A stretch of 64,000 nt of DNA from Calothrix anomala FACHB-343 (GTDB lineage: Bacteria; Cyanobacteriota; Cyanobacteriia; Cyanobacteriales; Nostocaceae), in the NCBI RefSeq assembly GCF_014696435.1, contig NZ_JACJQG010000015.1, forward strand, positions 1 through 64,000, given 5' to 3'. A program made the translations under genes and the position numbers. This document shows positions 37,025 through 64,000 of the stretch, one piece after another (position 1 is the stretch's first letter; each line of letters begins with the position of its first letter). The notes beneath the pieces were generated by a model, which was not told the DNA's origin, did no database searches, and saw nothing but the letters and a program-made list of their open reading frames with translations.

Positions 37025-37179
37025 TGTGACTTTAACCATAAGCTTGCCGCAACTGGAACCATAACTTTGCCGTCAACAAAGCTATAACCCTCATTCTTAC
37101 CTCAGCTAATTTTGGATGAAATTGACAGTTTGGAACCATAACTTTGCCGCTAGTCCAAATTGGAAGGATAAGCTTGCCG
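37025..37179 (+). mobile_element. End of the Tn7-like type I-B CAST with four TnsB-site-like repeats
   Basis: The proposed terminus is TGTGACTTTAACCATAA at 37025. Four direct repeats follow: AACCATAAGCTTGCCG (37034-37049), GGAACCATAACTTTGCCG (37055-37072 and 37132-37149) and GGAAGGATAAGCTTGCCG (37162-37179). Tn7-like ends start with TGT and carry several roughly 20-bp TnsB sites. The AACCATAA core also occurs in the ends of type I-F CASTs as I recall them. The exact terminal base is inferred; the 5 bases before it (GTGAC) are the predicted target duplication. Confidence 0.65.
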
Positions 37180-37316
37180 TGAGTCCAATTAAGCATAGAA
37201 GTAGGAAAGCCAGCCTCCAGAGGAGAAGCTTCGCTAACGCACTTCCACATTGATTTATACTGCCACTCAATTCGATGCCAGGGACTTTCTCCATAACAAC
37301 CACATAGCCAAATACA

Positions 37317-38453
37317 TTATTGGCTCATAAGTTCAATCAATTCGCTCACTACAGTCTCTGGATCATTTTCACAAAGGTCGGCATCAAATCTATGAATTCT
37401 TACCCCACTGTGTTCAAATAGTCTTTCTCTTTCATGTTCCTTTGCCCGTTTTTGAGGCAAGTGCCAATAACCATCGATCTCCAAAATTGCCCACTTGAAT
37501 CCTTTTGCTGTGGGGCAACAAACTAAGAAATCAGGCTCAAAGCTTTTATGATATCGTCCCAAACGCATCAAGCTGTTTGGTAAGTACATTAATCCTCGAT
37601 TCTCAAGTACCTGTGCTACTTTTATTTCAGTACGAGAACGGAAACGCATTGTTTTCCATTTATATATTTTCTGGTTAGGGAACAGTAAACAAGAGTGATT
37701 TATGCCTAAATTTTCATATATCGTTCCCTGAAAGTTTGTGCTAGTAAGATTAGCACCGTCAATCAGACATTGATTTAAATTAGCATTTTGCAGATTAGCA
37801 TTACTCAAGTCTGTTGCTTGAATATCAGCGTAGGCTAAATTTGCTTCAATTAAAGAAGCTCCTCTTAATTGAGAGCTAGTTAACTTTGCTTTGAATAAAT
37901 TAGCTCTATCCAATTGAGCTAGAGTTAAATCAGCCGCAACTAATTTAGTGTCGGTAAGTATAGATTCAGTAAGATTTGCATAACTAAAATCAGTTTTAGA
38001 AAGAAAAGCGTGATTGAAGTCAGCAAGAGTCAGGTTGGCATACCTCAATACGGCTTCCTCAAGAAAAGCACTTTCACCAATCACACCCTTCAAATTCGCA
38101 GCAGTAAATCTTGCACCCCGCAAGTAAGCTACTGCCAAGTTAGCTTGTTCTAAATCGGCATCATTTAGCAAAGCCTTAAACATAAAAGCGCATTTAAAGT
38201 CGGCTTGTTGCAAGTTTGCGCCTACTAAGTTAGTACCCATTAGATGGGCTTCCCTGAGTTTGGCTCCAACCAGTCGTGAGCCTTGCATATTCGCACCTGA
38301 AAGATTGGCTCTTCTTAAGTCAGCACCAGAAAAATCTACTTCGACTAAATTAGCTCCACGCAAGTCAGCTGCTACTAAGGAAGCACCAACAAAATTTTTC
38401 TCTCCAGCAGCTAGCCGTTGCAGATTCAATGCAACTTCTTGTTCCTGTTCCAT
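37317..38453 (-). CDS. Pentapeptide-repeat protein with C-terminal DUF559-type nuclease-like domain
   Basis: 378 aa. Residues of about 20-240 are pentapeptide repeats of the A(D/N)Lxx type (ANLVEVDFSGADLRRANLSG), forming a right-handed quadrilateral helix. The C-terminal 105 residues contain EPDFLVC, then WAILEIDGYWH, HERERLFEHSGV and RIHRFDADL, which is the pattern of DUF559/VSR-like PD-(D/E)XK nucleases. The second acidic position reads EID rather than ExK, as is usual in DUF559. It is the first gene inside the transposon end, reading toward that end. Function is unknown; a DNA-targeting defence or anti-competitor protein is one possibility. Confidence 0.8.
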   Translation of the reverse strand: MEQEQEVALNLQRLAAGEKNFVGASLVAADLRGANLVEVDFSGADLRRANLSGANMQGSRLVGAKLREAHLMGTNLVGANLQQADFKCAFMFKALLNDADLEQANLAVAYLRGARFTAANLKGVIGESAFLEEAVLRYANLTLADFNHAFLSKTDFSYANLTESILTDTKLVAADLTLAQLDRANLFKAKLTSSQLRGASLIEANLAYADIQATDLSNANLQNANLNQCLIDGANLTSTNFQGTIYENLGINHSCLLFPNQKIYKWKTMRFRSRTEIKVAQVLENRGLMYLPNSLMRLGRYHKSFEPDFLVCCPTAKGFKWAILEIDGYWHLPQKRAKEHERERLFEHSGVRIHRFDADLCENDPETVVSELIELMSQ

Positions 38454-38561
38454 GCAAACTAATTTTTCGGTTTTGGAATGCTCACAGCAAAGCCACCCTA
38501 AGACAACTAGAGTGGCTCAAAACATATCACTGTGCTATTGACATTTGGTTTAACTTCTGAG

Positions 38562-38870
38562 TTAACGCTTCTTTTTCTCAAGTGAACACAGTGCATTTCT
38601 CAGTTCATTAGGAATATCCTCAAAATGCTCTAGCAAGAAGTCCATTAAAGCGAGATGGCGCAAGTCTACAATGAGAGGCGACCGATAATTATGGCCTCTT
38701 CTAAACCAACGTTGCACGGTAGAGACTGAGCGAGAACAGATTAAAGCCAGCATTTCATAATTGACTTGCCACTTCGAGTAAAACTGTTGGGGAGTCATTC
38801 CTAAGCGACAGTTAGCGTAAAGCTGAATCAACTTTTGCTCTCGTTCAGTTATGGGACGAGTTTTGTTCAT
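38562..38870 (-). CDS. Small helix-turn-helix protein
   Basis: 102 aa from the ATG at 38870 (MNKTRPITEREQKLIQLYAN), which overlaps the stop of the upstream gene by four bases. An upstream in-frame start at 38912 is open but would overlap the neighbour by 46 bases. Residues YEMLALICSRSVSTVQRWF form a plausible helix-turn-helix. It is probably translationally coupled to the 193-aa gene and may regulate it or nearby cargo. Confidence 0.7.
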   Translation of the reverse strand: MNKTRPITEREQKLIQLYANCRLGMTPQQFYSKWQVNYEMLALICSRSVSTVQRWFRRGHNYRSPLIVDLRHLALMDFLLEHFEDIPNELRNALCSLEKKKR

Positions 38871-39448
38871 GATGCTTCTGCTGGCGCGAAAGGTTCGAGG
38901 TCTTCTTCCCAAGCCGTATCAGCAATTGTCCAGGCGGCGCTAGGACTATCTTTAGCCAGCCAAATCAGGTAGCGCCACATCCAACAACAGCGATGGGGTG
39001 CAAAGCTGTAAAATCTGCCGATCGCAATTCCCCAATCTGTGACATCATCAGACGAAACCCAGCGTAGTTTGTCACCGTACAAAAAGCGAGGTATTTCGAC
39101 GTTTGGGAAATGATTTGGTAGCTCAATCGACGGCGGCGGGATTTCTACATTAATTTGACTTAGCACCAAATCTGATTTGCCTTGCTCAATAGCGCTTAAA
39201 TAACTGGCGATTAAATTACTTTCAAGGCTATTAGTTAACCTTTGGATGAGTATTACTGCTAGGTTTTCTAGTTCTTGTCTCTCCACCAAGTATGCTGCAT
39301 CAAAATTTGGATGGGAAAAATTGCTTAACCGCGATAGTAGTTCTGTAATGCCAAAGTCATCTAAAGCCTGTTGATAAATATCCGAGCGATCGCGTTGAAC
39401 ACTCACAGGGTTTACCATAGATAAAATCTCCTTGAATGGGGAAACCAA
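38867..39448 (-). CDS. Hypothetical protein paired with the HTH protein
   Basis: 193 aa, no family recognised. The N-terminal two-thirds is helical. The C-terminus is rich in Trp and Cys (IGRFYSFAPHRCCWMWRYLI) and acidic at the end. There is no signal peptide or obvious membrane segment. It overlaps the downstream HTH gene (ATGA), so the two act together in some way. It is divergent from the ribbon-helix-helix gene at 39657. Confidence 0.65.
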   Translation of the reverse strand: MVSPFKEILSMVNPVSVQRDRSDIYQQALDDFGITELLSRLSNFSHPNFDAAYLVERQELENLAVILIQRLTNSLESNLIASYLSAIEQGKSDLVLSQINVEIPPPSIELPNHFPNVEIPRFLYGDKLRWVSSDDVTDWGIAIGRFYSFAPHRCCWMWRYLIWLAKDSPSAAWTIADTAWEEDLEPFAPAEAS

Positions 39449-39656
39449 AAGCCAGCGTCAGCCGTGGAAAGTTGGGCGCTGGCTTTTGCACAGGCGATTG
39501 CATGGTTTGGCAACTAAGCGATCGCCTTTGTTTTGTTACTCTATTGTAGTTATTTGTTATTACTAAATCAAGAGCGTCACTACAAAATTTTCCAAACCCT
39601 GCAAAATTGAGGTAAATAGAGTTATTACAGATTTAGGGCTTGAAGCAATAACTAAT

Positions 39657-39914
39657 ATGGCAAAGCGTCAGACAACAAAGCTGAACAATCAAATTATCGT
39701 CAGGATGGACGATGAGACCAAGGAAGCTTTTATGAATAAAGTTCAGTCTGAAGGGAAAACAGCTTCGGAATTAATCATGGGATGGATTCGTTCTTACCTT
39801 GCAGAAGAACGTCACGAAGTACCTGATTTAAGCGCAATTCATCAAGACTTAGAGAATTTAAAGCAGCAAGTTGCAGTAATTCAAAACGAACTCTTGGGAA
39901 AAATCGCAGCCTGA
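39657..39914 (+). CDS. Ribbon-helix-helix protein with a possible -1 frameshift extension
   Basis: 85 aa in the zero frame. The N-terminal 45 residues (LNNQIIVRMDDETKEAFMNK, then EGKTASELIMGWIRSYL) match the CopG/Arc ribbon-helix-helix DNA-binding fold. A coiled coil follows (LSAIHQDLENLKQQVAVIQN). The zero frame stops at 39912-39914. A slip of -1 at GGGAAAA (39896-39902) would continue the coil (SLRDENDSLRRWIDEIIN) to a stop at 39998-40000, giving about 114 aa. It lies upstream of the cas operon and may be a transcriptional regulator. Confidence 0.75.
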   Translation: MAKRQTTKLNNQIIVRMDDETKEAFMNKVQSEGKTASELIMGWIRSYLAEERHEVPDLSAIHQDLENLKQQVAVIQNELLGKIAA

Positions 39915-40000
39915 GAGATGAAAATGATTCTCTCAGGCGATGGATAGACGAAATCATTAATTCTGCACCCAGGATTCCAAAAGACCCATCAGACACATGA
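39896..40000 (+). other. Candidate -1 frameshift site and extension
   Basis: The heptamer G GGA AAA (39896-39902) is in the correct phase for a -1 slip. Six bases later a perfect 10-bp stem begins (GCCTGAGAGA 39909-39918 with TCTCTCAGGC 39929-39938, 10-base loop). The -1 frame then stays open to TGA at 39998-40000 and encodes a helical, charged continuation of the coiled coil. The hairpin lacks a following T-run, so it is not an ordinary terminator. A simple inactivating or sequencing indel is the alternative. Confidence 0.45.
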
Positions 40001-40159
40001 CGAGTTTGGTTTTCTTAAAGGAAAACTTGTTATTACAGGTATATATACATAGTAACTAATAATAGTGTTTGCGATGACAATGAGGACAATTTTGCACAAG
40101 AAAATGTTGATGTATTAACAAACTCTGACATCTTTAAATTTTTCTCAAAATTTCCATCT

Positions 40160-40825
40160 ATGGCAGCCATATTAATTCAAAGTGAGGAATATGTAGACTT
40201 AACGTTTAAGCTAAGAGGCGCACCGATTCCTCTTGATAATGGTTATGTTATCTATAGCGCATTGTCCAGGATTTGTCCTATCCTTCACGAACTAGAGTCT
40301 ATTGGGATTCATCCGATCGCCGGAATCCCGACCAGGAACAAGTTGCTTGAACTTACTGCTCAATCTCGTCTAAAAATTCGGATTCATCATCAACAAATTC
40401 CTTTAATTTATCCTTATTTAGCGGGGCAGGCTTTTCATATAGGACAAAATTCTTATCAACTAGATATTCCCGACTACAAACCGTTAATTTCTTCAGAAAG
40501 TGTCTATTCCAGATTAGTCGTAATTACAGGGTTTCAAGATTCTACTAACTTTATTGAAGCTGTTCAACGGCAACTAGATAATTTAGGAATACAAGGAAAA
40601 ATTGAACTTCTTACCAGACAAGATGGAATACCTCAAAAAAGACAATTAACCATCAATAAACAAGGTAAACAGTTTAAAGTTAGAGGACTTGGCGTAAAAA
40701 TAAGCGAACTCAACCCAGAAGATTCCTTAACTTTGCAAGAACAGGGAATTGGTGGGAAACGAAAGATGATGTGTGGAATATTTGTTCCAGCGACTCGCAG
40801 CCAGGAAGAAGAAGAAACCTCATGA
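40160..40825 (+). CDS. cas6: CRISPR endoribonuclease Cas6 (Cmx6-like)
   Basis: 221 aa. Cuts the pre-crRNA within each repeat and stays bound to the hairpin. Two RAMP-type ferredoxin folds are expected. The C-terminal glycine-rich loop typical of Cas6 is visible (GIGGKRKMMCGIFVP, about residues 195-209). It resembles the MYXAN-subtype Cas6. It is first in the cas6-cas8-cas7-cas5 operon; the stop overlaps the cas8 start (ATGA at 40822-40825). In a CAST it supplies guides to the Cascade-like targeting complex. Confidence 0.85.
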   Translation: MAAILIQSEEYVDLTFKLRGAPIPLDNGYVIYSALSRICPILHELESIGIHPIAGIPTRNKLLELTAQSRLKIRIHHQQIPLIYPYLAGQAFHIGQNSYQLDIPDYKPLISSESVYSRLVVITGFQDSTNFIEAVQRQLDNLGIQGKIELLTRQDGIPQKRQLTINKQGKQFKVRGLGVKISELNPEDSLTLQEQGIGGKRKMMCGIFVPATRSQEEEETS

Positions 40826-42402
40826 TAGTCCCTACCCAACCCAAAATTTCCCTATCTCTCGATGCTGCGGATACGACAATAATGCACCGCGTCGGAATGA
40901 CCGGGCTTTACATGACTTTAAAGCGATTAGAAAAGCAATATCCCTCATCTCGTCAACGCGGAGGACATATATCATGGTCTTTGACTGCTGATACTATTGA
41001 ATTATTCTGGCAAGGAAGTGATTTAGTTGCCCTATCTTGGTTAATTAAGGAGTCTTTTCAATTAGATGATACAGGTTTAATTCATTTAGCAGGATTAGAC
41101 AATGATGCAATATATTTAAGTCAGAAAATCCACATTCATGAGGGAATATGTGCTATTTTCCTACGACTTAATAAGTTTTATCAAGCAGGAGAGATAGTTA
41201 ACACTGAACTAACGGTTGAAGAAAAAAAAGTCGAGTATCAATATAAATCCCTAAGTTGGTATGCACATCAAACCTTTGCAGAGAAGTTATGCGAGGTAGA
41301 TACCCAACAACTCAGACATGATTATGTTCAAATAACCAGTTGGTTGTATTTAGGAGGGATTGTTCGCCATGCGAGGACGCAGAATACTACAAAACTGGAA
41401 GAGAAACCTGAATACGCCTTAGCATTATTATTTGTACCAGTAGTTTGTCATTATTGCGTACTTCATATTCCATCAGAAGACTTGAAGGAAAAGAAACCCC
41501 ATCGCTACCTGGTGGTGATTCCAGAAATCAAGGATTTTGAAGATGCTTCTCAAAGAAGATGGCGATTACAGCAATTAGAAACTAAACAGCTTCATGTTAG
41601 TAGCGTTGGTGAAGCAGGATTACTTTATTACAGCTTAGACGATATTCAGCCTGAAGGCGATTACTATCAAGCTTGTCAAGTTTGGTTATATGAAAAAATC
41701 AATCAAGCTTCTCGTCAAAGGACATTGATGAGTATAGAAGAAATTAAAATTGATAAGAATAATTTAATCACCTACCAACAAGTTCAAAAATACTTTCAAA
41801 CCAATTATCAGAAGCTTAAATCTAAGCAAATTTTTATTAAAGTGAATCCGATTCGCTCCATAATTGCTGATAATTTAGTACAAGGAATTCATTGGTGGTC
41901 TAATTTTTGGGAAAAATTTGTAATAGAGGATTCAAAAGGATATTTATTTAACCAAATATTTCCTAATCGAGAAGGATTCATAATAATGACAGAAAATAGT
42001 GAAGAAGACAGGCAGTATCTTATTTTTATTAAGGTATTTCAGCAAGCTATGAAGGGCAACTTTGCTAAAATGTATGCCAAAGCAGAGTCAGGGAAAGACC
42101 CTCCAATTAAAAAGAAAGTTGAACGATTAAGAGCAGAGCTAAACTGTTGTTATGATGAATTGTCGTTTAAGGAATATTTGTCCGAGTTTTTAGTAAGAGG
42201 AGGATTAAATAAGTATTTCAATGAACACCAAGAAGAGATTTTACTATTAATTAAAAAATCATCTTGGCAAGAATTAAGAATTTGGTCATTGTTAGCGATC
42301 GCCAGTTATAAACCCAGAGATAATTCCACAAATGGTGGTGATAATTTATTCCCAAGTAATCAAAAACTTGAAGGAGTGAATGATGAGTCAGAAGAAGAAT
42401 GA
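40822..42402 (+). CDS. cas8: Cas8-type large subunit (Cmx8-like)
   Basis: 526 aa from the ATG at 40822. The longer open frame from 40771 overlaps cas6 more and is not needed. The N-terminal region (TIMHRVGMTGLYMTLKRLEK, then GGHISWSLTADTIELFW) matches Cmx8 of the myxococcal-type I-B effector, from memory. Cas8 recognises the PAM and starts R-loop formation. No nuclease domain is seen, in keeping with guided transposition rather than interference. It overlaps cas7 by 20 bases. Confidence 0.8.
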   Translation: MIVPTQPKISLSLDAADTTIMHRVGMTGLYMTLKRLEKQYPSSRQRGGHISWSLTADTIELFWQGSDLVALSWLIKESFQLDDTGLIHLAGLDNDAIYLSQKIHIHEGICAIFLRLNKFYQAGEIVNTELTVEEKKVEYQYKSLSWYAHQTFAEKLCEVDTQQLRHDYVQITSWLYLGGIVRHARTQNTTKLEEKPEYALALLFVPVVCHYCVLHIPSEDLKEKKPHRYLVVIPEIKDFEDASQRRWRLQQLETKQLHVSSVGEAGLLYYSLDDIQPEGDYYQACQVWLYEKINQASRQRTLMSIEEIKIDKNNLITYQQVQKYFQTNYQKLKSKQIFIKVNPIRSIIADNLVQGIHWWSNFWEKFVIEDSKGYLFNQIFPNREGFIIMTENSEEDRQYLIFIKVFQQAMKGNFAKMYAKAESGKDPPIKKKVERLRAELNCCYDELSFKEYLSEFLVRGGLNKYFNEHQEEILLLIKKSSWQELRIWSLLAIASYKPRDNSTNGGDNLFPSNQKLEGVNDESEEE

Positions 42403-43348
42403 TAATAATATTCCCAATTATTATCTTTATGGAACAGTCCTCACTCGTTACGGTTTAGCTTCCTTAAATCATGACATGAGACGAGGAAATAAGACTACTC
42501 TGCAAAAAGGCTATTGGAATGGTAAGATTCATTCTTTTGTAGGTTCAAGTGCAATTCGTTGGGCGTTACGTTTTTATCTTCAAAAGCAAGGTTATTTAGT
42601 AAATCGAGTTTGGGATGAAGACGAACATATTAATAGGTTAATAAGTGAAGATTTCGACCCAGAACAATTTTATGATGATGATATTTTTGGGTTTGCTTTA
42701 TTAGAGTCTGCGGAAACAGAGTCGGAGACTTCGCCAACAAAAAGAAAAAAGAAACAAACAAAAACCAGTACTCCGAATCAGCGAATGGGTGCTTTAGCGA
42801 TGAATATGGCTGTTTCGCTAACGCCTTATGATGGTGCAATTAAGTTAGGGGTAAAAAGTGGCAGAGAAAAGGATAGCACATCGCTTCATTTTACAGAATA
42901 TCATGCAACTCGATATCAATATTATTTTGGAATTAATGCCAATCACCTCAAAGATTTTTCGCGAATTTTACCTCTGATAGATGGGATTATAAATCTGCCC
43001 AAGGTAGGAGGAAGTAGTAATATTTTTAATTATCCTTTCTGTCCCGATAGTTTGGTATTTCAATGGACAAATCATTTTGCTTCATATATTTCCTATTGCT
43101 TTGAATATTGCGCTCCTAAGAGTAAGGAAGCAAAATTTACAAAAGAATTTATAGATGAAGTGGAATGCGGACAAATTGACCCTACTCAGTTGTGGATTGG
43201 TGGAACAATTGTGAAGCAGTTACAGCAATTAGATAATTTTGAGAGTTCTCCTTTTAAGAAGGCGCATATTTATCGGAATCGAAATGAACTGCTTGAAGAT
43301 TTGAAAACAGTCATTAAAAAAGATTTGGGGTTAGAAGAATCAAAATGA
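42383..43348 (+). CDS. cas7: Cas7-type backbone subunit (DevR family)
   Basis: 321 aa. Forms the helical backbone that coats the crRNA spacer. The N-terminus (YYLYGTVLTRYGLASLNHDM, then SFVGSSAIRWALRFYL) is typical of the Cas7/Cst2/DevR family. The ATG at 42383 is preferred because GGAG lies 6 bases upstream; the ATG at 42380 is also possible. A charged insertion (SPTKRKKKQTKTSTP) lies near residue 115. Its start overlaps cas8 and its stop overlaps cas5 (ATGA). Confidence 0.8.
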   Translation: MSQKKNDNNIPNYYLYGTVLTRYGLASLNHDMRRGNKTTLQKGYWNGKIHSFVGSSAIRWALRFYLQKQGYLVNRVWDEDEHINRLISEDFDPEQFYDDDIFGFALLESAETESETSPTKRKKKQTKTSTPNQRMGALAMNMAVSLTPYDGAIKLGVKSGREKDSTSLHFTEYHATRYQYYFGINANHLKDFSRILPLIDGIINLPKVGGSSNIFNYPFCPDSLVFQWTNHFASYISYCFEYCAPKSKEAKFTKEFIDEVECGQIDPTQLWIGGTIVKQLQQLDNFESSPFKKAHIYRNRNELLEDLKTVIKKDLGLEESK

Positions 43349-43983
43349 CTGCGCCATTAATTCTCTATTTGGATGTTCCCTTTGTGACTTTTCGGGAGTC
43401 CCATGCAAGGGAAATGGGAAAAACCTACCCTGTCCCGCCTCCAGCAACAGTGTATGGGATGTTGTTGTCTTTGGTAGGAGAAAAGGATGTCTATCGCCAC
43501 TGTGGGGTAGAATTGGCGATCGCAATGTTATCTATCCCCAAAAAGTCGCGAATTTTGCGTCAAATGAGACGGTTTAAGAATGCAGATTTTAGCCATCCAG
43601 AGAATAGTATTCCCTGTTATCAAGAAATTTTGTCTAATCTCAAGTGTTGGATTTGGGTTCGTTCTGATGGGGAGAAGATACAACCAAGTTTAAGGGAGAG
43701 AATACAGTTAGCGTTTGACCATCCTGAGCTAGTAAGACGGTTTGGTTGTTTATTTTTGGGAGAAAGTGACCAGTTGATTAAAACGATCAAACTTGTCTCA
43801 GAAGATTATCTACAGGGGGTGAGACAGTGGGTGATTAGGGATAATCGAGGAAGGTTAACCTTACCTTATTGGGTTGACCATGTGGGGTCAAGAAATACTC
43901 GATTTTTGAGGTATCGGATTAAGGAAATGCCAAGCTCACCACCTCCTGATTTGGCGTGGACGATGATTCAATCTCCAATTTGA
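43345..43983 (+). CDS. cas5: Cas5-type subunit (DevS/Cmx5-like)
   Basis: 212 aa. Caps the 5' handle of the crRNA in the Cascade-like complex. The N-terminal LYLDVPFVTFRESHAREMGK and PVPPPATVYGMLLSLVGE are typical of Cas5 (the PxPxTxxGxL-like segment). It is the last gene of the cas operon; no cas3, cas4, cas1 or cas2 follows. The CRISPR array starts 248 bases downstream. Confidence 0.85.
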   Translation: MTAPLILYLDVPFVTFRESHAREMGKTYPVPPPATVYGMLLSLVGEKDVYRHCGVELAIAMLSIPKKSRILRQMRRFKNADFSHPENSIPCYQEILSNLKCWIWVRSDGEKIQPSLRERIQLAFDHPELVRRFGCLFLGESDQLIKTIKLVSEDYLQGVRQWVIRDNRGRLTLPYWVDHVGSRNTRFLRYRIKEMPSSPPPDLAWTMIQSPI

Positions 43984-44231: not shown

Positions 44232-44627
44232 GTGATTCGTGGCTTGATGCCGTTAGGCGTTGCTCAAACATAACAACGGGCTACACCAGCAAACCAATCT
44301 GATAGAGTGATTCGTGGCTTGATGCCGTTAGGCGTTGCTCAAGTTGAACCCCAGGTTTGCGCGATAGCTGTTAGTCCGTGATTCGTGGCTTGATGCCGTT
44401 AGGCGTTGCTCAATTTCTTATCCTTGGTTCCCTGTGTGCAAGGCTTAAGTGATTCGTGGCTTGATGCCGTTAGGCGTTGCTCAAATTTCTTTTTCCATCC
44501 TTGAGGGAGGCTTGGGATATGTGATTCGTCGCTTGATGCCGTTAGGCGTTGCTCAAGTAAGGTTCCCTACCTCGCCCAAGGTTGCTATCCAGTGATTCGT
44601 GGCTTGATGCCGTTAGGTGTTGAGCAA
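44232..44627 (+). CRISPR. CRISPR array, 6 repeats and 5 spacers
   Basis: The 36-bp repeat begins GTGATTCGTGGCTTGATGCC and ends TTAGGCGTTGCTCAA. Repeats start at 44232, 44307, 44378, 44449, 44521 and 44592; spacers are 39, 35, 35, 36 and 35 bp. An internal stem ATGCC-GTTA-GGCGT fits a Cas6 hairpin and predicts the 8-nt handle TTGCTCAA. Repeat 5 has one change (G10C). Repeat 6 has three (C27T, C32A, T33G), altering the predicted handle to TTGAGCAA. There are no adaptation genes, so new spacers would have to come from enzymes in trans. Confidence 0.95.
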
Positions 44628-47644: not shown

Positions 47645-47653
47645 GGATAGCGA

Positions 47654-50238: not shown

Positions 50239-50303
50239 TAGGCATTTAGGCAAGATAGGTTATTTTATGTTTCTTTTGAGCTTCTAGCCAGTAGTAAGAG
50301 CAG

Positions 50304-54308: not shown

Positions 54309-55900
54309 TGACTGAGTTTTATCAAGTGTTGGGGGGGAGTGTTCCAAAACTGCTTGGACGAGAAAAAGTGCTGGCGAGCTTAGAAAGCCATTTGCTGAAG
54401 CCAACACCTGATCATGTATCAGTTATTGGGTTTGCTCGTTATGGAAAAAGTGTATTACTTAATCATTTAGCAGATAATTACCGTGCTGGAAATGAATATT
54501 TTACAACTTCTTTATACATTGACTTCCGTCACGCAACACCCACAACTGATGAGGAGTTTAGGTGCTGTTTTGCTAAAAGTGTTAAATCAACTATTGAAAA
54601 ATTCCGGCCAGAAGTTGCAGAGTATATTGAACTGACTGACGGCAGTAGCATTCATGAACTACTCGATTTTGCATTTGGGGAGTTAAACAATACAGGCGAT
54701 CGCTTGCTTGCTGTTCTAGATGGATTCGATCACGTTCTGGACACTTCAAATATTACCAGAACCCTGTGGGACAATATGCGAACGCTGGCACTTCACTCCA
54801 GTTTGACTTTAGTTACAGGCAGTCGTCGTCCCCTCCGAGAACTGTGTGCTTCTGAAGAATCGAAATCCTCTGACTTCTGGGAAATTTTTTATGACACACC
54901 ATTAGAAATTAACAAGCTTGAAGATGCTGACTGGGAAGGGTTTCTCAAACCCATGCTAGACAAACAAATTACAATTGAACCTGCGGCAAAACGAGAAATA
55001 GTTGTCTGGACTGGAGGAGTTCCCCTTCTTGCAGCTGCCCTAATGCGTGAGCTTTGTAAAGAAACTGCTGAAAGAGCTAGTTTATTACAGAGTGATGTTG
55101 AACGCATTGCCGAAAAAATGGTCGCTAGTCAGTCCCAACTCATATCAGCTTTGTGGGATGACTGTAGCGATGAAATGAAAAGTGATTTAGCTTCTGCTGC
55201 GGCAAAAGGAATTCCTCAAAATCTTTTGCCGCATAGTAGAAAATCTGAATTAGAAAGACGAGGTTTTCTCCAACTCACGGGAGACACCCTAAAACCAGCC
55301 TGCAAAATAATGGAGAAGTATGCTCGTGTGAGAACGCCAGGAGTTAACAATCTTCGTGGCTTGTTTGGGAATACAAATGTCTTTGAAGAAAATATTCAAG
55401 GTACACTGGAACTGCGATTTGCTCAAATTCCCCAGGTAGATCAAACTATCAGCAACTATGTACGCAAAGCAATTCGAGATATCTCCCCATCACCTCGAGA
55501 CTCTCTCGTTTGGATGCGAAACATTGCAGAACGTTCACTGGACTTGATTTGGGAAAAGGAATTGCCTCGCGATCGCTCAATTCCTCCGAACTGGATAAAC
55601 GAATGGAAAAAATCCGGCGAGTGGAAAGAAGAATTGTTAGATTCAGGCAAACGGCTTCCTAGAAGTCGTGGAGAGCAATGTAACATTTTGCGCCTTGCAA
55701 CTGGTACACAAAATTCCCATTTTGTTACTAAATATGTTACCAAATCTACCTACTTATTAGTAAATCATGTTAAGTCAGTCGGCGACTTTGGACAACATCG
55801 AGAAAGCCGAGATTTTATAAATATAGGAACTGCTGCCTCTTTCTGCATGAGTGCGATCGCTCTTTGCGAAAGCCTGTACAATGACCTGAATCGCTCATAA
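54308..55900 (+). CDS. P-loop ATPase of the defence module
   Basis: 530 aa. A STAND/AAA-like ATPase with Walker A GFARYGKSVLL (41-51) preceded by PKLLGREKVLASLESH, and a Walker B-like LLAVLDGFD near 133-141. The acidic residue after the Asp is replaced by Gly, so hydrolysis may be weak. TLVTGSRRPL follows as a sensor. A winged-helix-like region spans about 260-350. The last 160 residues (from about 370) are a separate helical domain rich in Arg and Trp with no recognised family. It is coupled to the upstream fusion gene; the two P-loop proteins probably work together. Confidence 0.7.
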   Translation: MTEFYQVLGGSVPKLLGREKVLASLESHLLKPTPDHVSVIGFARYGKSVLLNHLADNYRAGNEYFTTSLYIDFRHATPTTDEEFRCCFAKSVKSTIEKFRPEVAEYIELTDGSSIHELLDFAFGELNNTGDRLLAVLDGFDHVLDTSNITRTLWDNMRTLALHSSLTLVTGSRRPLRELCASEESKSSDFWEIFYDTPLEINKLEDADWEGFLKPMLDKQITIEPAAKREIVVWTGGVPLLAAALMRELCKETAERASLLQSDVERIAEKMVASQSQLISALWDDCSDEMKSDLASAAAKGIPQNLLPHSRKSELERRGFLQLTGDTLKPACKIMEKYARVRTPGVNNLRGLFGNTNVFEENIQGTLELRFAQIPQVDQTISNYVRKAIRDISPSPRDSLVWMRNIAERSLDLIWEKELPRDRSIPPNWINEWKKSGEWKEELLDSGKRLPRSRGEQCNILRLATGTQNSHFVTKYVTKSTYLLVNHVKSVGDFGQHRESRDFINIGTAASFCMSAIALCESLYNDLNRS

Positions 55901-55942
55901 ATACGAAATTTGGAATTCTGTGGTTGCGGGAGATTTGTCCTC

Positions 55943-57997
55943 ATGCCTGCTCCTCTTATCTGTCATTATTTAATTGGCCCACCAGGCAGTGGTAAATCTA
56001 CCCTAGCTGGCCAGATGAGCCAGCTTATTCCCAATAGCCGAATTATTTCGAGTGATCAAATTCGGGGAAAACTTTATGGAGATGAACAAATCCAGGGAGA
56101 TTGGGCAGAAATTGAACAAATTATTTTAGAAGAAATTCAAGCGGCGATCGCGCAGCAGCAACCTGTTATTTATGACGCGACGAATGCCAAGCGTGTTTGG
56201 CGGATGGGTTTGCTTCAGAAAATAGCTGATTTTGAAGCTCAGTGGGTTGCCTGGCATCTTAAAACTCCACGTCAGTTTTGCCAGAACTGGAATATGCAAC
56301 GGGGACGGCAAGTCTCTCCAACAGTCCTGGATGATTTATTCCAGAGCTTAAAACACTTTCCACCTTTAGCCGCGGAGGGATTTTTTGCAATTTACGAGTT
56401 AAATCCAGCCCAGTTTCAAGATTTAATCAGTGAAGTCAAAAGCAAAATTAACCTCCTTCCTCGTAGCGTCACTAATCGCACAAACCGCACTCAGCATAGC
56501 CAGACTGTCTTACATCCCTACTCTAAATTGCTGGATTTTGATCGCCTTTTGCATTTGATTAGTTTGCTGATTCGCTACCCCGGTATTGGTAACTTACAGA
56601 GTACAAATCCAGATATCCTCCAGCAGCTCATTGGGGAAGAAATCCAGTTCCAAACAGAAATATCGGAAATATGTGCTATTTTGCAGCGTTTGTACGGCTC
56701 TATTTATGCAGATCCTAATGCTATCACCGCAGATATGGAATGGCTGGAAGCAAATAATTTTCTCAGCCCCATTGCTGTTAACCAAGAATTGGTAATTGCT
56801 GAAGTCGCAACTATTAATACTGCAACCCATCCATATTCTGACCGAGAAGCATTCAAAAGATTATTAACAACAATACGTTTCATTCTTCAAAATCCCTTTC
56901 AATGGAATTCTGATCAGGGCAGCTTGAGAAGCCTGGTTTCTGCTATGCAAAAGCAAGGATTAATTGATGGGAACCAGACGGATGCAATCCGCAAAGATAT
57001 TGAACGTATACTCAAGCCGTTTCAGCTTCTACCAGAATTTGCCTTAAAACGTGGCTACTTTATTGGAACAGGCATTTTATCAGCATCCCAACTAACTAAG
57101 GTTTTTCATGTTCTGCAAGCCCAGGCTAAAAATTTACAAGACCCGATTGCCTTGGGAATTTTGGAAATATTTGACGAACGGATGAGGCAAAGCCAATTGA
57201 GTACTCAAGCTATCTACCCTATCCGTGCAATCTGCAATCGGACAATTGTTGACCCGCAGCTACTGCCTCAATCTGCCCTTGCTAGAGAAATCGAGAAACT
57301 GGAAGATGAAATTGAACAGGGGCAACTCTTAGAATTAAAACGTTTTTCCGGAGTTGGTCGTTACGCAGAAAAGCAAGAAGAATTCTTTCGCATCTGGCCC
57401 CTGCAAATTGTGTTTCATAACATTGGTTGGTATCTCGGTTTTGAAATCGCTGAAGGACAAAACCAAGGGCTATTACAATTTGAACGCCTAGATCGCTTAT
57501 TTCGAGGCTATCCTCAATCAAATAAACGCGATCGCAGTCAGCAGGAAAAGTCTCTTAAAAAGCTCCAGTGTCTTTACCAAGCTTGTGGGGGACTTTACCT
57601 CGGTAAAAGCGTAGCCGATCAGCGTCAATTTTTGAGCAAATCCCTAAGCAATAGGGATGCAGTCTGTATAACTGTAGAACTTTGGTTCAATGACTACGCA
57701 TTTCGATTCATCAGCGAAGGAACCCAACGATTTCCTATCACACAAATGAAGATGTCTCCACGGCTGTCTGACAGTCAAATTCCCCAGGGACTGGCTTCAC
57801 TTTTTAGCCTATCTAAAAGCTCAGATCCTACTCATCCAAACCGATTTCGAGTAAAGTTACCCCGCTGGTCACTAGACGATATCGATCTCCGTCGCTGGAT
57901 TTTAGGCTTTGGGGATCAGGTGAAAGTTGTTGAACCGCAAGAGTTAACCCAACAAATTCAGGGGATTGGAGTGGCGATCGCAAATCTCTACAGCTAA
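55943..57997 (+). CDS. P-loop kinase fused to a WYL domain
   Basis: 684 aa from the ATG at 55943, preceded by GGGAG; a longer frame from 55910 starts at TTG. The N-terminal 160 residues are a polynucleotide-kinase-like P-loop domain: GPPGSGKS (12-19), then SSDQIRGKLYGD and VIYDATNAKR. The middle is helical. The C-terminal third matches a WYL domain plus its C-terminal extension (IVFHNIGWYLGFEIAEGQ, LLQFERLDRLF; then VELWFNDYAFRFIS near the end). WYL domains bind nucleic acid or nucleotide ligands and regulate many defence systems. A kinase-WYL fusion as the last gene of this operon suggests sensing of modified or damaged nucleic acid; this is an inference. Confidence 0.75.
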   Translation: MPAPLICHYLIGPPGSGKSTLAGQMSQLIPNSRIISSDQIRGKLYGDEQIQGDWAEIEQIILEEIQAAIAQQQPVIYDATNAKRVWRMGLLQKIADFEAQWVAWHLKTPRQFCQNWNMQRGRQVSPTVLDDLFQSLKHFPPLAAEGFFAIYELNPAQFQDLISEVKSKINLLPRSVTNRTNRTQHSQTVLHPYSKLLDFDRLLHLISLLIRYPGIGNLQSTNPDILQQLIGEEIQFQTEISEICAILQRLYGSIYADPNAITADMEWLEANNFLSPIAVNQELVIAEVATINTATHPYSDREAFKRLLTTIRFILQNPFQWNSDQGSLRSLVSAMQKQGLIDGNQTDAIRKDIERILKPFQLLPEFALKRGYFIGTGILSASQLTKVFHVLQAQAKNLQDPIALGILEIFDERMRQSQLSTQAIYPIRAICNRTIVDPQLLPQSALAREIEKLEDEIEQGQLLELKRFSGVGRYAEKQEEFFRIWPLQIVFHNIGWYLGFEIAEGQNQGLLQFERLDRLFRGYPQSNKRDRSQQEKSLKKLQCLYQACGGLYLGKSVADQRQFLSKSLSNRDAVCITVELWFNDYAFRFISEGTQRFPITQMKMSPRLSDSQIPQGLASLFSLSKSSDPTHPNRFRVKLPRWSLDDIDLRRWILGFGDQVKVVEPQELTQQIQGIGVAIANLYS

Positions 57998-58222: not shown

Positions 58223-59212
58223 CTACAACTTTAATTCCAGACTAAAATTCCCGAACAATATCTTGCTCAATTCCTGAAAATCTAACCCAAACAACTGGGC
58301 TATACTAATCTTCGCCTTTTCGCACACAGGAATAATCAACTTCACCAAATGATAAGGTTGACTTTGATTTGTTGTTGAGGCAATCCTCAACGATTCCATG
58401 ATTCCCCCTAAATCTCCCAATAGCTGCAAATCCTTGCCAATTGCTTGTTCAAACACTAACAAAATTAATTGTAATTTTCGGGTTAACTCAATAGGGATAG
58501 GTTTATATCCTAATTGGGGAGTAAGTGCAATTAAGTCGCTAATTCCTTGAATATTAACTCTATATTTCTCTATATCCTCTTCACCTTTAATTTCCTGTCC
58601 TAACCACCCGTCACAACGAGAACAAAATCCTGCAGGCGAAAACTTAGCCATTACAGGTAAACGTGAACCACAATGAGAACATTCTTCTATTAATCGCTGT
58701 TTGTGAATCAAACAAAATTCTAAATCCTTAAATGACCATAATAAGGGTTCATAGATAGTTTTGTTCTCCTGCATCCACTCTTGCCAACAACAAGGACACC
58801 AAGCACGATAGTTCCGAAATAACCCTTTGTCATAAATCATTCCTTTCCAGCTTAAAAGGGTCAAGAAACGTAAATCCTGACGCATTGTTAACTCTTCTAA
58901 GACCGTGACTAACTTCCCTGTCATTTCTCGCATTCCGTTGATAGCAGGTTTCGCATCGCTATTTCCCAATAGGTGACTCAGATTTTTTGCCAATAGCTCA
59001 GATTTATCCTCATCTTTGAGGATAAGTGGCGCAATTTCTCCCATAACGAGCTTTTGAGAGGTTAAACAATGCGCCTGCGCCAAACGATGGAGATAGCTAC
59101 TAAGACTTTCTGCGTAGGGAGTTCCCACCGCCACAGGTTCAAGAGAGAATAACCGACTCCGTTGCGGTATTTCTAAAGGTTTTAGGTTCCAATTTTCTAA
59201 GTAAATAGTCAT
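58223..59212 (-). CDS. tniQ: TniQ, link between Cascade and the transposase
   Basis: 329 aa from the ATG at 59212 (MTIYLENWNLKPLEIPQRSR); an in-frame start at 59230 adds 6 residues. Zinc-ribbon-like clusters are visible: WCPCCWQEW, CLIHKQ...CSHCG and GFCSRCDGW. The N-terminal pattern SRLFSLEPVAVGTPYAESLS is the TniQ family signature. In type I CASTs the short TniQ docks on the Cas complex and recruits TnsC. It closely resembles the N-terminus of the TnsD at 63537, so the two are paralogues. It is downstream of xre on the same strand, about 50 bases away. Confidence 0.88.
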   Translation of the reverse strand: MTIYLENWNLKPLEIPQRSRLFSLEPVAVGTPYAESLSSYLHRLAQAHCLTSQKLVMGEIAPLILKDEDKSELLAKNLSHLLGNSDAKPAINGMREMTGKLVTVLEELTMRQDLRFLTLLSWKGMIYDKGLFRNYRAWCPCCWQEWMQENKTIYEPLLWSFKDLEFCLIHKQRLIEECSHCGSRLPVMAKFSPAGFCSRCDGWLGQEIKGEEDIEKYRVNIQGISDLIALTPQLGYKPIPIELTRKLQLILLVFEQAIGKDLQLLGDLGGIMESLRIASTTNQSQPYHLVKLIIPVCEKAKISIAQLFGLDFQELSKILFGNFSLELKL

Positions 59213-59262
59213 CCCTTTTGGATTAACCATTACGCTGGTACTTTAGTTTTAACAGCCGAATT

Positions 59263-59696: not shown

Positions 59697-62393
59697 ATGA
59701 AAGAGCAATTTGAACAATGGGTTGCTCGCCTGCAGATATCCGAGGCAGGGCAAAAAATTATTGAGAAAGTTCGCTCATCTGAACCATCCCGTCGCGTTGG
59801 TGGCGGTAGTAAGAATGTTTCTGGACGCTACCCTAGTCGCAAGATGGGAGTCACGATTCAATTTGAGTCTCATCGGGTTGAACTGCCAGTTATCTATCTG
59901 TTAGAACATGATGAAGATGTTCTAGAATTCTACGATCAACCACCGCAAATTAAACTGGACTATCAAGCAAGTAACGGACGTAGATTAGGCGTTTTACACA
60001 CCCCAGATTTCTTTGTCATCCGAACCAATTCGGCTGGTTGGGAAGAGTGTAAAACTGAGCAGGATTTGAAAAAACTAGCAGAGAAAAGCCCCAATCGTTA
60101 CTTTTACTCTCAAGAAGATAATCAATGGCATTGTCCGCCAGGAGAAGCCTATGCTGACCAGTTTGGGCTTTATTACCAAATTCGTTCTGATAGAGAAATA
60201 AACTGGGTTCTGCAACGTAATCTGCAATTTTTAGAAGACTATTATCGCTCAGAATCCCTAGCAGTGGAAGACACAATTGCTCAATCATTACTTGCAATTG
60301 TGTCGTCTCAACCAGGAATCACTTTAGCAGAACTACTCAATCAGTCAACAGGAGCTAAATCTGACAATATCTACACCTTAATTGCTCTTGGGCAAATCTA
60401 TTTTGATTTAAATGCTGCACCACTTGCTGAACCAGAAAGATGTCTCGTCTTCCGTGACGAACAGACTGCTAGTGCTTATAGATTAATGGTGGAGCAGCCA
60501 AGTGTAAATCTTCCGGCTATCTCTCCTGTAATCAATCTTGCTACTGGAACCCCTGTTAGTTGGGACGGCAAAGGTTTAAATATCATCCATGTTGGCGAAA
60601 CAGAAGTTATACTTGGCGCAGAAAATAATCAGTTAATTGAACTCAAAAAATTTGTATTTGAGAATCTGGTTCGTCAAGGAAAAATCACCAGTCTCCAAAC
60701 ACCAGAAAAAACAGCTATTAGCACAGAATCTTGGCAGCGATTTTATCAAGCTAGTCCAGAAGACCAAGCAGAAGCTCTTGAACGCTACAAAACTATCGAG
60801 CCTTACTTAAACGGTCATCCCCCAGAAAACGAAACAATACCTGCTCGTACCATTCGTGACTGGAAAGCTAAATATCTAACTGCACTTCAAAAATACGGTT
60901 GCGGCTACATTGGGCTTTTGTCCCATCGCAGTGTCAAAGGTAATTGTCAGCGCAAGCTGCCCGAAGACACCTTAGCAATCATGAAGAAATTTATTTTAGA
61001 AGACTACGAAACTCTGAAACAAAAAAAAATGTGGGAGGTTTACGGGGCTTTAGTTCTAGCTTGCGAAAAATCTGCTGTAATTGCTCCGAGCTATAAAACA
61101 TTTACTAAAGAAATAAAACGCCGTACTGGTTACCAACAGACTAAAAAACGCCAAGGTCGCCGTGCTGCTTATCAGTATGAATCTTTCTATTGGGAGCTTA
61201 CCCAAACTACCCCAAGACACGGCGATCGCCCCTTAGAAATTGGACATATCGACCATACCCCGTTAGATGTAGAGCTAGCTTGCTCACGTACAGGTCGCAA
61301 TCTTAACAAACCTTGGGCAACATTTCTCGTAGATGCTTATTCGCGGCGATTGCTGGCAGTTTACCTAACGTTTGACTCACCCTCATATCGTTCTTGCTTA
61401 ATGGTGCTAAGAATTTGTGTCCAACGTCACGGTAGACTCCCGCAAATTGTAGTCGTAGATAACGGTACAGAGTTTCACAGCGTTTACTTCGAGACACTAC
61501 TAGCTACTTTTGAATGTACAAAAAAGCAAAGACCCCCAGCCAAAGCTCGTTTTGGTTCGGTTTGCGAACGCCTATTTGGGACTGCCAATACTGAATTTGT
61601 TTATAACTTACGCGCTAATACACAAATAACTCGTAACGTCCGCCAAGTCACCAAGTCAGTTAACCCTAAAAATAAAGCTGTATGGACACTTGGTTTACTT
61701 TATGAATATCTTTGTGCTTGGGCTTACGAAGTTTACGATACAGACGAACATCCAGCACTTTTCCAAAGTCCGAGGGATGCGTTTGCAGCAGGTATGGCGA
61801 TTGGTGGCAGTCGGCTTCACCGCATGATTCCTTACGATGAAAACTTTCAGATTCTTACCCTACCTACCACCTCAGAGGGGAAAGCAAAAGTTCAAGTTGG
61901 ACGCGGTGTAAAAATTAACTACATCTACTACTGGTCTAATAGTTTCCGCGACCCGCAAATTGAAAATACCTCTGTTCCAATCAGATATGACCCGTTTAAT
62001 ATTGGCATCGCTTACGCCTTTGTTCGCGGACAGTGGGTACAGTGTATTTCTCAATATTATGCAGAATTCCAAGGTCGTTCAGAAAAAGAACTGAAGTTAG
62101 CTAGTATCGAGTTACGCAAACGCTCCTCAAATCATGCACAACAATCTAAAGTTTCGGCTAAGAATCTAGCAAAATTTTTAGCATCTGTAGAAGCACAAGA
62201 AGCTCTACTAGAACAGCGTTCCTATGACGCAGAAGCCAGGGAAGTCTTTAGGGTAATTGAGGGTGGAAAAGCGACAGCAAGCCGCAACGAACAACCAAAG
62301 GTTATTCAAGTTCCTTTTGAAAATACTGATACTCAAGTGGCTGAAGATGAAGCGCTCGTCCCAGAAACACTTGTAGTGTATGAGGAGTTTTAA
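59697..62393 (+). CDS. tnsAB: TnsA-TnsB fusion transposase
   Basis: 898 aa. The N-terminal 220 residues are TnsA-like: a PD-(D/E)XK endonuclease with HTPDFFVI (D104) and WEECK (E117, K119), which cuts the 5' ends. A winged-helix linker region follows. The DDE integrase core has IGHIDHTPLD (D519), VVDNGTEF (D588) and FGSVCERLFG (E624), a D-35-E spacing. The C-terminal beta-barrel and tail (to about 898) should contact TnsC. A fused TnsAB permits simple cut-and-paste insertion rather than cointegrates. It is co-transcribed with tnsC, whose GTG start lies 2 bases after its stop. Confidence 0.93.
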   Translation: MKEQFEQWVARLQISEAGQKIIEKVRSSEPSRRVGGGSKNVSGRYPSRKMGVTIQFESHRVELPVIYLLEHDEDVLEFYDQPPQIKLDYQASNGRRLGVLHTPDFFVIRTNSAGWEECKTEQDLKKLAEKSPNRYFYSQEDNQWHCPPGEAYADQFGLYYQIRSDREINWVLQRNLQFLEDYYRSESLAVEDTIAQSLLAIVSSQPGITLAELLNQSTGAKSDNIYTLIALGQIYFDLNAAPLAEPERCLVFRDEQTASAYRLMVEQPSVNLPAISPVINLATGTPVSWDGKGLNIIHVGETEVILGAENNQLIELKKFVFENLVRQGKITSLQTPEKTAISTESWQRFYQASPEDQAEALERYKTIEPYLNGHPPENETIPARTIRDWKAKYLTALQKYGCGYIGLLSHRSVKGNCQRKLPEDTLAIMKKFILEDYETLKQKKMWEVYGALVLACEKSAVIAPSYKTFTKEIKRRTGYQQTKKRQGRRAAYQYESFYWELTQTTPRHGDRPLEIGHIDHTPLDVELACSRTGRNLNKPWATFLVDAYSRRLLAVYLTFDSPSYRSCLMVLRICVQRHGRLPQIVVVDNGTEFHSVYFETLLATFECTKKQRPPAKARFGSVCERLFGTANTEFVYNLRANTQITRNVRQVTKSVNPKNKAVWTLGLLYEYLCAWAYEVYDTDEHPALFQSPRDAFAAGMAIGGSRLHRMIPYDENFQILTLPTTSEGKAKVQVGRGVKINYIYYWSNSFRDPQIENTSVPIRYDPFNIGIAYAFVRGQWVQCISQYYAEFQGRSEKELKLASIELRKRSSNHAQQSKVSAKNLAKFLASVEAQEALLEQRSYDAEAREVFRVIEGGKATASRNEQPKVIQVPFENTDTQVAEDEALVPETLVVYEEF

Positions 62394-62395
62394 TT

Positions 62396-63547
62396 GTGAC
62401 AAAATCTACTGGATTTCCGCTTGAACTCCTCACACGACCTGCTACAGAAAGGCTGGCTTACTTTGAGAATTACACCGTAGCGCATCCTCGGCTTAAAGAA
62501 GTCTATGAAATTCTCATACGAACAATTGCCGAACCCGCAGGGGCATCATTTATTTTTGTTTATGGGCCTAGCGGTGTTGGTAAAACAACTTTACGATTGC
62601 GTGTTGAGCAGAAATTAACAGAACTAGTATTACCATTACTGGAAAGCGACCGCGGTCGTGTTCCTGTTGTTGGTGTTGAAGCTATAGCCCCAGAATCAAG
62701 AAACTTCAACTGGAAAGATTACTACACACGCGCTTTAATCGCCTTAGAAGAACCTTTAATCGATCACAAGTTTGATTACGGTGTGCGTGGTATCTCTCGC
62801 GATAATTTTGGCAAAATCAATGTTGAGCCAAAAGTAGTTGCACCTGCTTTACGCAGAGCTTTAGAAAATGCTCTCATCCATCGTCATCCCGACGTATTTT
62901 TTGTAGATGAAGCCCAACATTTTGGCAAGATGGCAAGCGGGTACAAGCTGCAAGATCAATTAGACTGCCTCAAATCTCTAGCAAATATGACAGGGATTTT
63001 ACACTGTCTATTAGGAACTTACGAATTACTGACATTCCGTAATTTAAGCGGTCAACTCTCACGCCGTAGCGTCGATATTCATTTCCGCCGTTATTGTGCT
63101 GAAAATCCAGAGGATGTACAAGCTTTCAAAAGTGTATTATTAACCTTCCAGCAGCAGATGCCGCTTGCAGAAGCTCCAGATTTAGTTAGTCATTGGGAAT
63201 ATTTTTACGAACGTACTTTAGGATGTGTTGGCATACTGAAAAATTGGTTAACACGCGCTCTTAAAGATGCTTTGGATCGAGAAGCAACAACAGTCACGCT
63301 CAAAGACTTACAAAAACGTGCTTGGTCGGTTGCTCAGTGTCAGAGAATGTTCAAGGAAATTCAAGAGGGTGAACGACAATTATCTGAAACAGAAACAGAT
63401 ATACAAAACTTACGCTCTGCATTAGGACTTGGAACAAAATCAATTGTGCTACCCGAAGAAACGCCAAAAACTACTCGTCCTCCAGGAAAGGTTGGTAAAC
63501 GCAAACCAAAAAGAGATCCCATCGGAGTGCAACAAGATGTTAGCTAG
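62396..63547 (+). CDS. tnsC: TnsC, AAA+ transposition regulator
   Basis: 383 aa, GTG start. The AAA+ motor has Walker A GPSGVGKT (57-64) and Walker B VFFVDEAQH (D171-E172). It assembles on DNA at sites marked by TniQ or TnsD and activates the TnsAB transposase. The C-terminal 50 residues are Lys/Arg-rich (TTRPPGKVGKRKPKRD) and may bind TnsAB. The stop overlaps the tnsD start by 11 bases. Confidence 0.92.
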   Translation: MTKSTGFPLELLTRPATERLAYFENYTVAHPRLKEVYEILIRTIAEPAGASFIFVYGPSGVGKTTLRLRVEQKLTELVLPLLESDRGRVPVVGVEAIAPESRNFNWKDYYTRALIALEEPLIDHKFDYGVRGISRDNFGKINVEPKVVAPALRRALENALIHRHPDVFFVDEAQHFGKMASGYKLQDQLDCLKSLANMTGILHCLLGTYELLTFRNLSGQLSRRSVDIHFRRYCAENPEDVQAFKSVLLTFQQQMPLAEAPDLVSHWEYFYERTLGCVGILKNWLTRALKDALDREATTVTLKDLQKRAWSVAQCQRMFKEIQEGERQLSETETDIQNLRSALGLGTKSIVLPEETPKTTRPPGKVGKRKPKRDPIGVQQDVS

Positions 63548-64000
63548 TGCATTAGAAACATACGAATCTTGGGATTTAAAAAAGCTTTCTATTCCATCTC
63601 GTAGTCGCTTGTATCAATTACAGCCTGTTGGTATTGGTACTCCGTTGGTAGAAAGCTTAACTGGTTATATATCTCGGCTAGCAGAAGCCCATTGTGTAAC
63701 CCCAAAAGCTTTAATATCCAGAGAACTTGTGTCCTTTATACCCAAGACTTACAAAACTACAAATCTTTTTGAAATGCGAAGTTTAACTGGGGCACTCAAT
63801 GGAATAGGTACGATGGCTCTTGATTTAGTTACAGTGCTAGAGTCATTAACTCTACGTAGTGATTTGCGTTTTCTCTCTCTATTAACATGGGCTGGTATCT
63901 TTCCCCAAAGGAGATTACTTCGTGCTAGACGAGCTTGGTGTCCCTACTGTTATGAGGAGTGGTATTCCTCGAAAGACAAAGTAATTTACGAACCCTTAAT
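63537..64000 (+). CDS. tnsD: TnsD (TniQ-domain) target selector, cut off by the window end
   Basis: The first 154 residues are visible, starting at ATG 63537 with GGAG about 10 bases upstream. SRLYQLQPVGIGTPLVESLT matches the TniQ/TnsD family, and WCPYCYEEW begins the zinc ribbon. It sits directly after tnsC, overlapping it, as is usual for TnsD. TnsD binds a fixed attachment site (such as near glmS or a tRNA in known systems) and directs homing insertion. Whether it is full length (usually over 450 aa) cannot be seen here. The alternative is a second short TniQ. Confidence 0.85.
   Translation, partial: MLASALETYESWDLKKLSIPSRSRLYQLQPVGIGTPLVESLTGYISRLAEAHCVTPKALISRELVSFIPKTYKTTNLFEMRSLTGALNGIGTMALDLVTVLESLTLRSDLRFLSLLTWAGIFPQRRLLRARRAWCPYCYEEWYSSKDKVIYEPL

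Follow-up and report, generated by a model that had tools for sequence, protein, structure and literature searches.

Subtype I-B2 of the CRISPR-associated transposons (CASTs) is marked by a fusion of TnsA with TnsB and by a TnsD that targets tRNA genes, and in subtype I-B1 TnsD homes at glmS (both according to the available part of PMC11406308). CyCAST, a related system of type I-D, homes 30-33 nt downstream of tRNA-Leu, as the available part of PMC10293859 describes. Here we analyze a stretch of 64,000 nucleotides from the cyanobacterium Calothrix anomala FACHB-343, called the window (bases 1-64000 of the 155,536-bp contig C52, in a genome of 9.24 Mb), with the contig also read beyond position 64000. 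The right-hand part of the window, together with the adjoining 1.26 kb of the contig, holds what is very probably a complete I-B2 CAST, which lies beside a tRNA-Leu gene, carries restriction genes as cargo and reached its site by TnsD homing. The first-pass annotation of this DNA had proposed a type I-B CAST with a TnsAB fusion, no nuclease and a defence cargo. This reading is borne out: just beyond the window, the contig supplies the missing second end, along with the duplication and a tRNA attachment site.

The closest comparison is with locus L018, from Nostoc 'Peltigera membranacea cyanobiont' 210A. We take this record to be the source of PmcCAST (Tn7744); its TnsAB and the window's share 90% identity. 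Both share gene order, TnsAB fusion, TnsC, TniQ, the Cas6-8-7-5 set, array and ends, with 88-92% identity for Cas6, Cas8, Cas7, Cas5, TniQ, TnsAB and TnsC. In contrast, full-length TnsD is 45% identical, L018 lies at tRNA-Val(UAC) and not at tRNA-Leu(UAA), its cargo is a different one, and a 274-bp insert interrupts the right end of the window element. The proposed cyanobacterial I-B plan was right as to type, the subtype being I-B2 (PmcCAST-like) rather than I-B1 (AvCAST-like), as the element sits at tRNA-Leu and not at glmS. The CAST of Nostoc sp. S4 (L014, L094, L131, L132) resembles the window element in its Leu-type TnsD (88%), its tRNA-Leu site with a 31-nt gap, a clean duplication and a type V-K CAST end immediately beyond its left terminus; it differs in cargo, where the only counterpart above 40% identity is a 58% homologue of a 193-aa protein (two pieces, two contigs). 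CyCAST shares TnsAB, TniQ plus TnsD and tRNA-Leu homing, but combines them with an I-D Cascade and adaptation genes, whereas the window has an I-B Cascade without them (PMC10293859, available part).

A bounded element beside tRNA-Leu

The CAST extends from 37025 to contig position 65261 (28,237 bp), so that the window ends 1.26 kb before the right terminus. Its anatomy, both ends and their flanks can be read directly from the contig. The left terminus TGTGACTTTAACC starts at 37025 and the right terminus ...GGTTCCAGTCACA ends at 65261, each with the target-site duplication GTGAC immediately outside (37020-37024 on the left; contig 65262-65266, beyond the window, on the right). The left end (37025..37210, plus strand) comprises TGTGACTTTAACC and four AACCATAA-type repeats, and eight relatives match the greater part of it at 84-93%. 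Reading past 64000 for the second end, as had been suggested, located it at 65261 with the GTGAC duplication and repeats at 64912-65237. Two repeat-bearing ends with a 5-bp duplication are a mark of I-B2, the right end being interrupted in this case.

The attachment site is a tRNA-Leu(UAA) gene on the minus strand (contig ~65293-65674), split by a group I intron (65386-65649). The intron was recognized by Rfam and the split tRNA by eye, and ARAGORN reported no tRNA at that spot. The right terminus lies 31 nt past the 3' end of tRNA-Leu, and the corresponding gap was 29-32 nt in 15/15 loci measured. A gap of 31 nt is the spacing of TnsD homing, and a TnsD homing site at a tRNA gene is a further mark of I-B2.

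The transposition genes lie next to this end. The tniQ gene (58223..59230, minus strand; Pfam, match to PDB 8fcu) encodes a protein of 335 aa, the presumed partner of Cascade. It is followed on the plus strand by tnsAB (59697..62393; 898 aa), with the Pfam domains TnsA N and C, rve and Mu C and a match to PDB 9bw1 aligned over residues 1-898, by tnsC (62396..63547; 383 aa), an AAA ATPase in tnsC position, and by tnsD of the tRNA-Leu type (460 aa; 63537..64919), which is cut by the window edge at 64000 and ends at contig 64919. The fused TnsA and TnsB, and a TnsC with two TniQ-family proteins (short TniQ, long TnsD), again are marks of I-B2.

At the opposite side, four genes on the plus strand encode Cascade: cas6 (40160..40825; Pfam, PADLOC, NCBIfam), cas8 (40771..42402; PADLOC, NCBIfam), cas7 (42380..43348; PADLOC, below the NCBIfam cut-off) and cas5 (43345..43983; PADLOC, NCBIfam). 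Pfam alone names only cas6 among them, and the NCBIfam label for Cas6, Cas8 and Cas5 is I-MYXAN. Cas8 matches Cas8 of PDB 8fcj, while its last 138 residues (406-543) match the separate Cas11 chain of that structure; an internal start at the ATG at 41986 would yield Cas11, so that, judged by its sequence, cas8 would encode Cas11 from within, as in I-B2. The CRISPR array (44232..44627, plus strand) has six repeats of 36 nt, the last one degenerate, and five spacers of 35-39 nt. All of these genes, hsdR/M/S and the small array included, are present as named in the first-pass annotation. Its statement that cas1, cas2, cas3 and cas4 are absent holds for the scanned open reading frames (ORFs) of the element: no cas1, cas2 or cas4 was found among 17 ORFs by Pfam, 10 of them also by PADLOC (short overlapping ORFs unscanned), and the Cas3 model gave only a weak match, by hsdR (E 0.003). 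An I-B Cascade without these four genes within the element is likewise typical of I-B2 (the search for them was confined to the element).

Between array and tniQ lie most of the cargo genes, which place cas and tns genes about 15 kb apart. The first-pass annotation pointed to this distance, implying an oddity; the distance stands, but the oddity does not, because four relatives read end to end (the genome of L018, N. desertorum, N. carneum and Mojavia) show the same order of left end, cas operon, array, cargo, tniQ, tnsAB, tnsC, tnsD and right end. Cas at the left, tns at the right and variable cargo in between is the usual plan. Nevertheless, the distance could speak for two separate adjoining elements, one with cas and one with tns genes, and the terminal decamer has lone near-matches at 43383 and 54802, neither with repeats adjoining. 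Such an origin would call for a full transposon end between cas5 and tniQ. End-repeat clusters (up to three mismatches) occur in the element only at 37034-37164 and 64912-65237, with no cluster inside, so that no such end was found; moreover, one duplication brackets all genes. We consider two separate elements ruled out for practical purposes by the missing internal ends and the same plan in relatives. Insertion guided by a spacer, i.e., by the RNA-guided route instead of TnsD, is conceivable in an element with Cascade, TniQ and array, whose guiding spacer may have been lost since. However, no spacer matches the flanks: compared with 123 kb of the contig, the sole shared 14-mer lies at position 155, far from the insertion site, and a search of the whole genome brought up nothing beyond the array itself and a related one on contig C18. 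A spacer now present is therefore rejected as the guide, and with a gap to the tRNA as constant as in relatives, the spacer-guided route in general appears very unlikely.

Homing by TnsD of a complete I-B2 CAST remains by far the best reading, although several observations weigh against it. No spacer target was found in any search: the array used as query gave no phage and a single weak hit on a plasmid (query bases 13-41, E 0.1), and the 22-base cores of spacers 1-5 had no exact match in IMG/VR. The right end is split by the 274-bp insert (C52:64937-65210; L004:1937-2210), which has inverted ends TGTGACTTAA and a TTATT duplication and of which no second copy was found among the loci compared. 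Furthermore, the right-end tip is GGTTCCAGTCACA, compared to GGTAAAG(T/C)CACA in the right ends of 14 relatives. Insert and deviant tip make the present mobility of the element doubtful. Finally, duplications match in only 3/13 elements with both flanks read (window, L014 and L026; by eye); the duplication is shifted in L012 and mismatched in 9 of the 13, some of these elements having their ends on different contigs.

TnsD types and the tRNA genes they accompany

Scanning genome contigs with TnsAB yielded 20 loci; all counts refer to related genomes. These elements lie at four tRNA genes: tRNA-Ala(GGC) in L012, L021 and L026, tRNA-Val(GAC) in L015, L019, L024 and L025, tRNA-Val(UAC) in L016, L017 and L018, and tRNA-Leu in the window, L014, L020, L022 and L031. 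Among 12 TnsD proteins counted as full, the 13 pairs with the same tRNA are at least 82.6% identical, compared to at most 57.7% for the 53 other pairs. For nine CASTs, which share ~92% identical TnsAB and TnsC, the seven same-tRNA pairs of TnsD reach at least 83.9% and the 29 others at most 57.7% (permutation p 0.0002), whereas the same tRNA labels gave p 0.28 for TnsAB and p 0.88 for TnsC. Excluded from the TnsD comparisons were L013, L023 and L027-L030, which have no usable tnsD with its tRNA (L030: distant fragments). L025, L026 and L031, broken or partial, do not count among the 12, L024 (386 aa, inner gap) was counted as full, and L021 has no full TnsAB.

Along tnsC and tnsD, identity per 100 bases between the window and L018, L012, L019 or L016 is 79-98% until ~63,600-63,700 and then ~40-67%. 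Against L014, the other CAST at tRNA-Leu, it remains at 86-98% through to the end of tnsD. TnsD thus follows the tRNA while TnsAB and TnsC do not, and identity breaks abruptly near 63,650, where the putative exchangeable body of tnsD begins; together this fits the exchange of a tnsD cassette. An exchange that altered the homing tRNA would best account for the TnsD pattern, and recombination is its probable route. The available part of PMC10293859 reports few dual loci hinting at tniQ/tnsD exchange between transposons; exchange among related TnsD proteins might elude that dual-locus test. We make no claim that tnsD cassette exchange is new to the literature.

A type V-K end next to the I-B2 element

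A type V-K CAST end (36957..37007, minus strand) begins 17 bp outside the I-B2 left terminus. Read inward, it shows TGTACAGTGACAAATT and, deeper inside, a TGTCGTCGTGACA repeat. Over its outermost 15 nt it is the same as the end of the left-end primer of ShCAST, a type V-K system (primer sequence from the available part of PMC9527255), and when the I-B2 element is removed in silico, the V-K end lies 43 nt past tRNA-Leu. The neighbour thus has the terminal sequence of a V-K element but, unlike ShCAST, is an end remnant only: neither Cas12k nor an anchor repeat-spacer was found near the end, C52 gave no Cas12k match, and its surroundings yielded no V-K gene. Going outward, one next meets an hsdR. 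Window positions 33190-36827, just outside the left end, hold this second type I hsdR, a mere fragment of hsdM and an IS200-like ORF. The genome's single Cas12k match, on contig C6 (L032:4378-5340), is to a shortened gene of 320 aa.

Ends of this kind turn up at these tRNA genes elsewhere in the genus, in some cases with an I-B2 element lying within them. In L014, a V-K end also lies just outside the left end. At tRNA-Val(GAC), a V-K end stands between the tRNA and the I-B2-type right end, exact in L015, L019, L024 and L054 and degenerate in L025 and L151; no such V-K end was seen in the remaining right ends compared. With up to one mismatch, V-K ends start within 60 nt of tRNA-Val(GAC) in 6/9 genus genomes, C. 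anomala included, and within 60 nt of tRNA-Leu(UAA) in 3/9, where the window's own is uncounted as the I-B2 element intervenes. An anchor match of 18 nt to tRNA-Val(GAC) accompanies the V-K end of L144, and in L137, at tRNA-Leu, inspection by eye shows the R* sequence next to an incomplete anchor. The I-B2 left end of N. desertorum (17427) is separated by ~136 bp from the end of a Cas12k remnant lying outside it (17290), which is what insertion of the I-B2 element into a V-K end would produce; the duplications of that I-B2 element, however, mismatch. Against the motif as a general mark of V-K elements, seven of these with long Cas12k genes end in other sequences that resemble it only in part. 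Layered ends of V-K and TnsAB-type elements are also seen in L143-L151 (3' flank of tRNA-Val(GAC)) and in L134-L142 (tRNA-Leu(UAA)), and short stretches with two facing ends in L135, L140, L147 and L148 look like miniature elements. The literature search on stacked V-K and I-B2 elements gave no clear case, and none appears in the available parts of PMC8649781 and PMC11656645.

Could the V-K end be a chance match? No V-K gene adjoins it, the genome's sole Cas12k is the shortened one on C6, and tRNA-Leu and the flank 31001-37019 have no 12-mer in common. On the other hand, all 15 of 15 terminal nucleotides agree with the ShCAST primer, the TGTCGTCGTGACA repeat follows inward, and the background for the 13-nt form of the motif, at up to one mismatch, is 25 of 21,699 pieces of 60 nt from the fetched loci, a count that includes the true sites; chance is a highly improbable explanation. 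A more serious contender, still unlikely, is that the TnsD types diverged fast in place without any exchange of cassettes. All types are related (different types reach up to 57.7% identity), and DNA-binding parts may change fast. Yet the CRISPR-less elements L020 and L022 carry a Leu-type TnsD 83-86% identical to the window's with a TnsAB of 76-77%, whereas L012, with a TnsAB of 93%, has a TnsD of ~50%, and identity falls abruptly between 63,600 and 63,700. We lean, with slightly better than even confidence, to the view that I-B2 CASTs switch home by a cassette of the tnsD body, also exchanged with CRISPR-less relatives, while TnsAB, TnsC, TniQ and Cascade stay, and that the reach of TnsD would strand V-K elements.

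Cargo, a second CAST and implications

Two cargo genes on the minus strand precede the cas operon, a pentapeptide-repeat protein (37317..38453; Pfam) and the 193-aa protein (38867..39448), which has 58-59% homologues in two relatives. The others follow the array on the plus strand: the type I restriction operon hsdR-hsdM-hsdS (45335..50238; Pfam, PADLOC), a 1334-aa fusion of N6 methylase, specificity domain and STAND-like ATPase (50304..54308), a 530-aa AAA/STAND-like ATPase (54308..55900) and a kinase-like AAA_33 plus WYL protein (55910..57997), found in 82/388 genomes of the class. The N. desertorum CAST has homologues of hsdR (97%), hsdM (88%), hsdS (72%, 295 residues), fusion (61%), ATPase (80%) and kinase-WYL protein (93%). 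Its fusion is 37-64% identical per 100-residue block over the first 900 residues and 80-97% over residues 901-1300.

On a plasmid of Acinetobacter ursingii (L182:6498-14263), homologues of hsdR (36%), fusion (30%) and ATPase (31%) adjoin; window 45335-55900 also holds the three together. HsdR, the methylase-specificity-STAND fusion and the STAND-like ATPase are a candidate defence system, in which, as a guess, the fusion senses DNA and sets off a STAND response. For the fusion, the best 25 of 99 PADLOC 2.0.0 matches carry generic methylase or specificity names along with partial matches to MADS parts; the 530-aa ATPase had no PADLOC 2.0.0 match and no related solved structure (best E 0.4). A dead methylase in the fusion was considered and rejected: although the window has VPPW and Acinetobacter HPPV at the motif, the N. 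desertorum fusion has NPPW. The idea that the kinase-WYL gene generally travels with the STAND pair was likewise dismissed, as the short flanks of 29 loci contained no other window gene. A literature search for a methylase-STAND system gave nothing relevant among the titles listed.

The same genome contains further CAST pieces. Contig C18 carries a second I-B2 cas operon with array (L115, C18:2621-6946), C141 a right end at tRNA-Val(UAC) (L133, 28789 on) with a Val(UAC)-type TnsD (85-94%) that is split over two frames and thus broken, and C129, which also has phage-like terminase and portal genes, a left end (L007, 1114-1291). The C141 end is a further case of a TnsD type found with its own tRNA. 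We infer that the three belong to one second I-B2 CAST. Behind their last repeat, the C18 array (L115:6944 on) and the N. carneum CAST array (L128) have the same 36 nt.

For the element in the window, we infer the following activities and order of events. TnsD would recognize the 3' part of tRNA-Leu(UAA) and act as the agent of insertion 31 nt beyond, with the right end towards the tRNA; TnsAB would cut and join, and TnsC would connect target selector and transposase. TniQ and the nuclease-less Cascade (Cas6, Cas8 with internal Cas11, Cas7, Cas5) would serve, with the array, an RNA-guided route that presumably directs the element into mobile elements, and the genes between array and tniQ would travel as cargo. 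The TnsD body, from about codon 45, may act as an exchangeable cassette whose exchange accompanies a change of the tRNA used.

With this locus, a kind of CAST already known gains a complete I-B2 member that has both boundaries defined and a variant of homing. Together with its relatives it forms a natural series in which near-identical transposases are combined with TnsD proteins of four types, found at four tRNA genes; target choice by TnsD is thereby testable through the swap of a single gene in the PmcCAST machinery, which has already been studied. Two CAST families use, and stack at, the same tRNA genes. In the view we lean to, shared tRNA genes and the fixed TnsD reach of 29-32 nt would place I-B2 elements inside V-K ends at tRNA-Val(GAC); the V-K element would then be stranded, and two families of CRISPR transposons would compete over one address.

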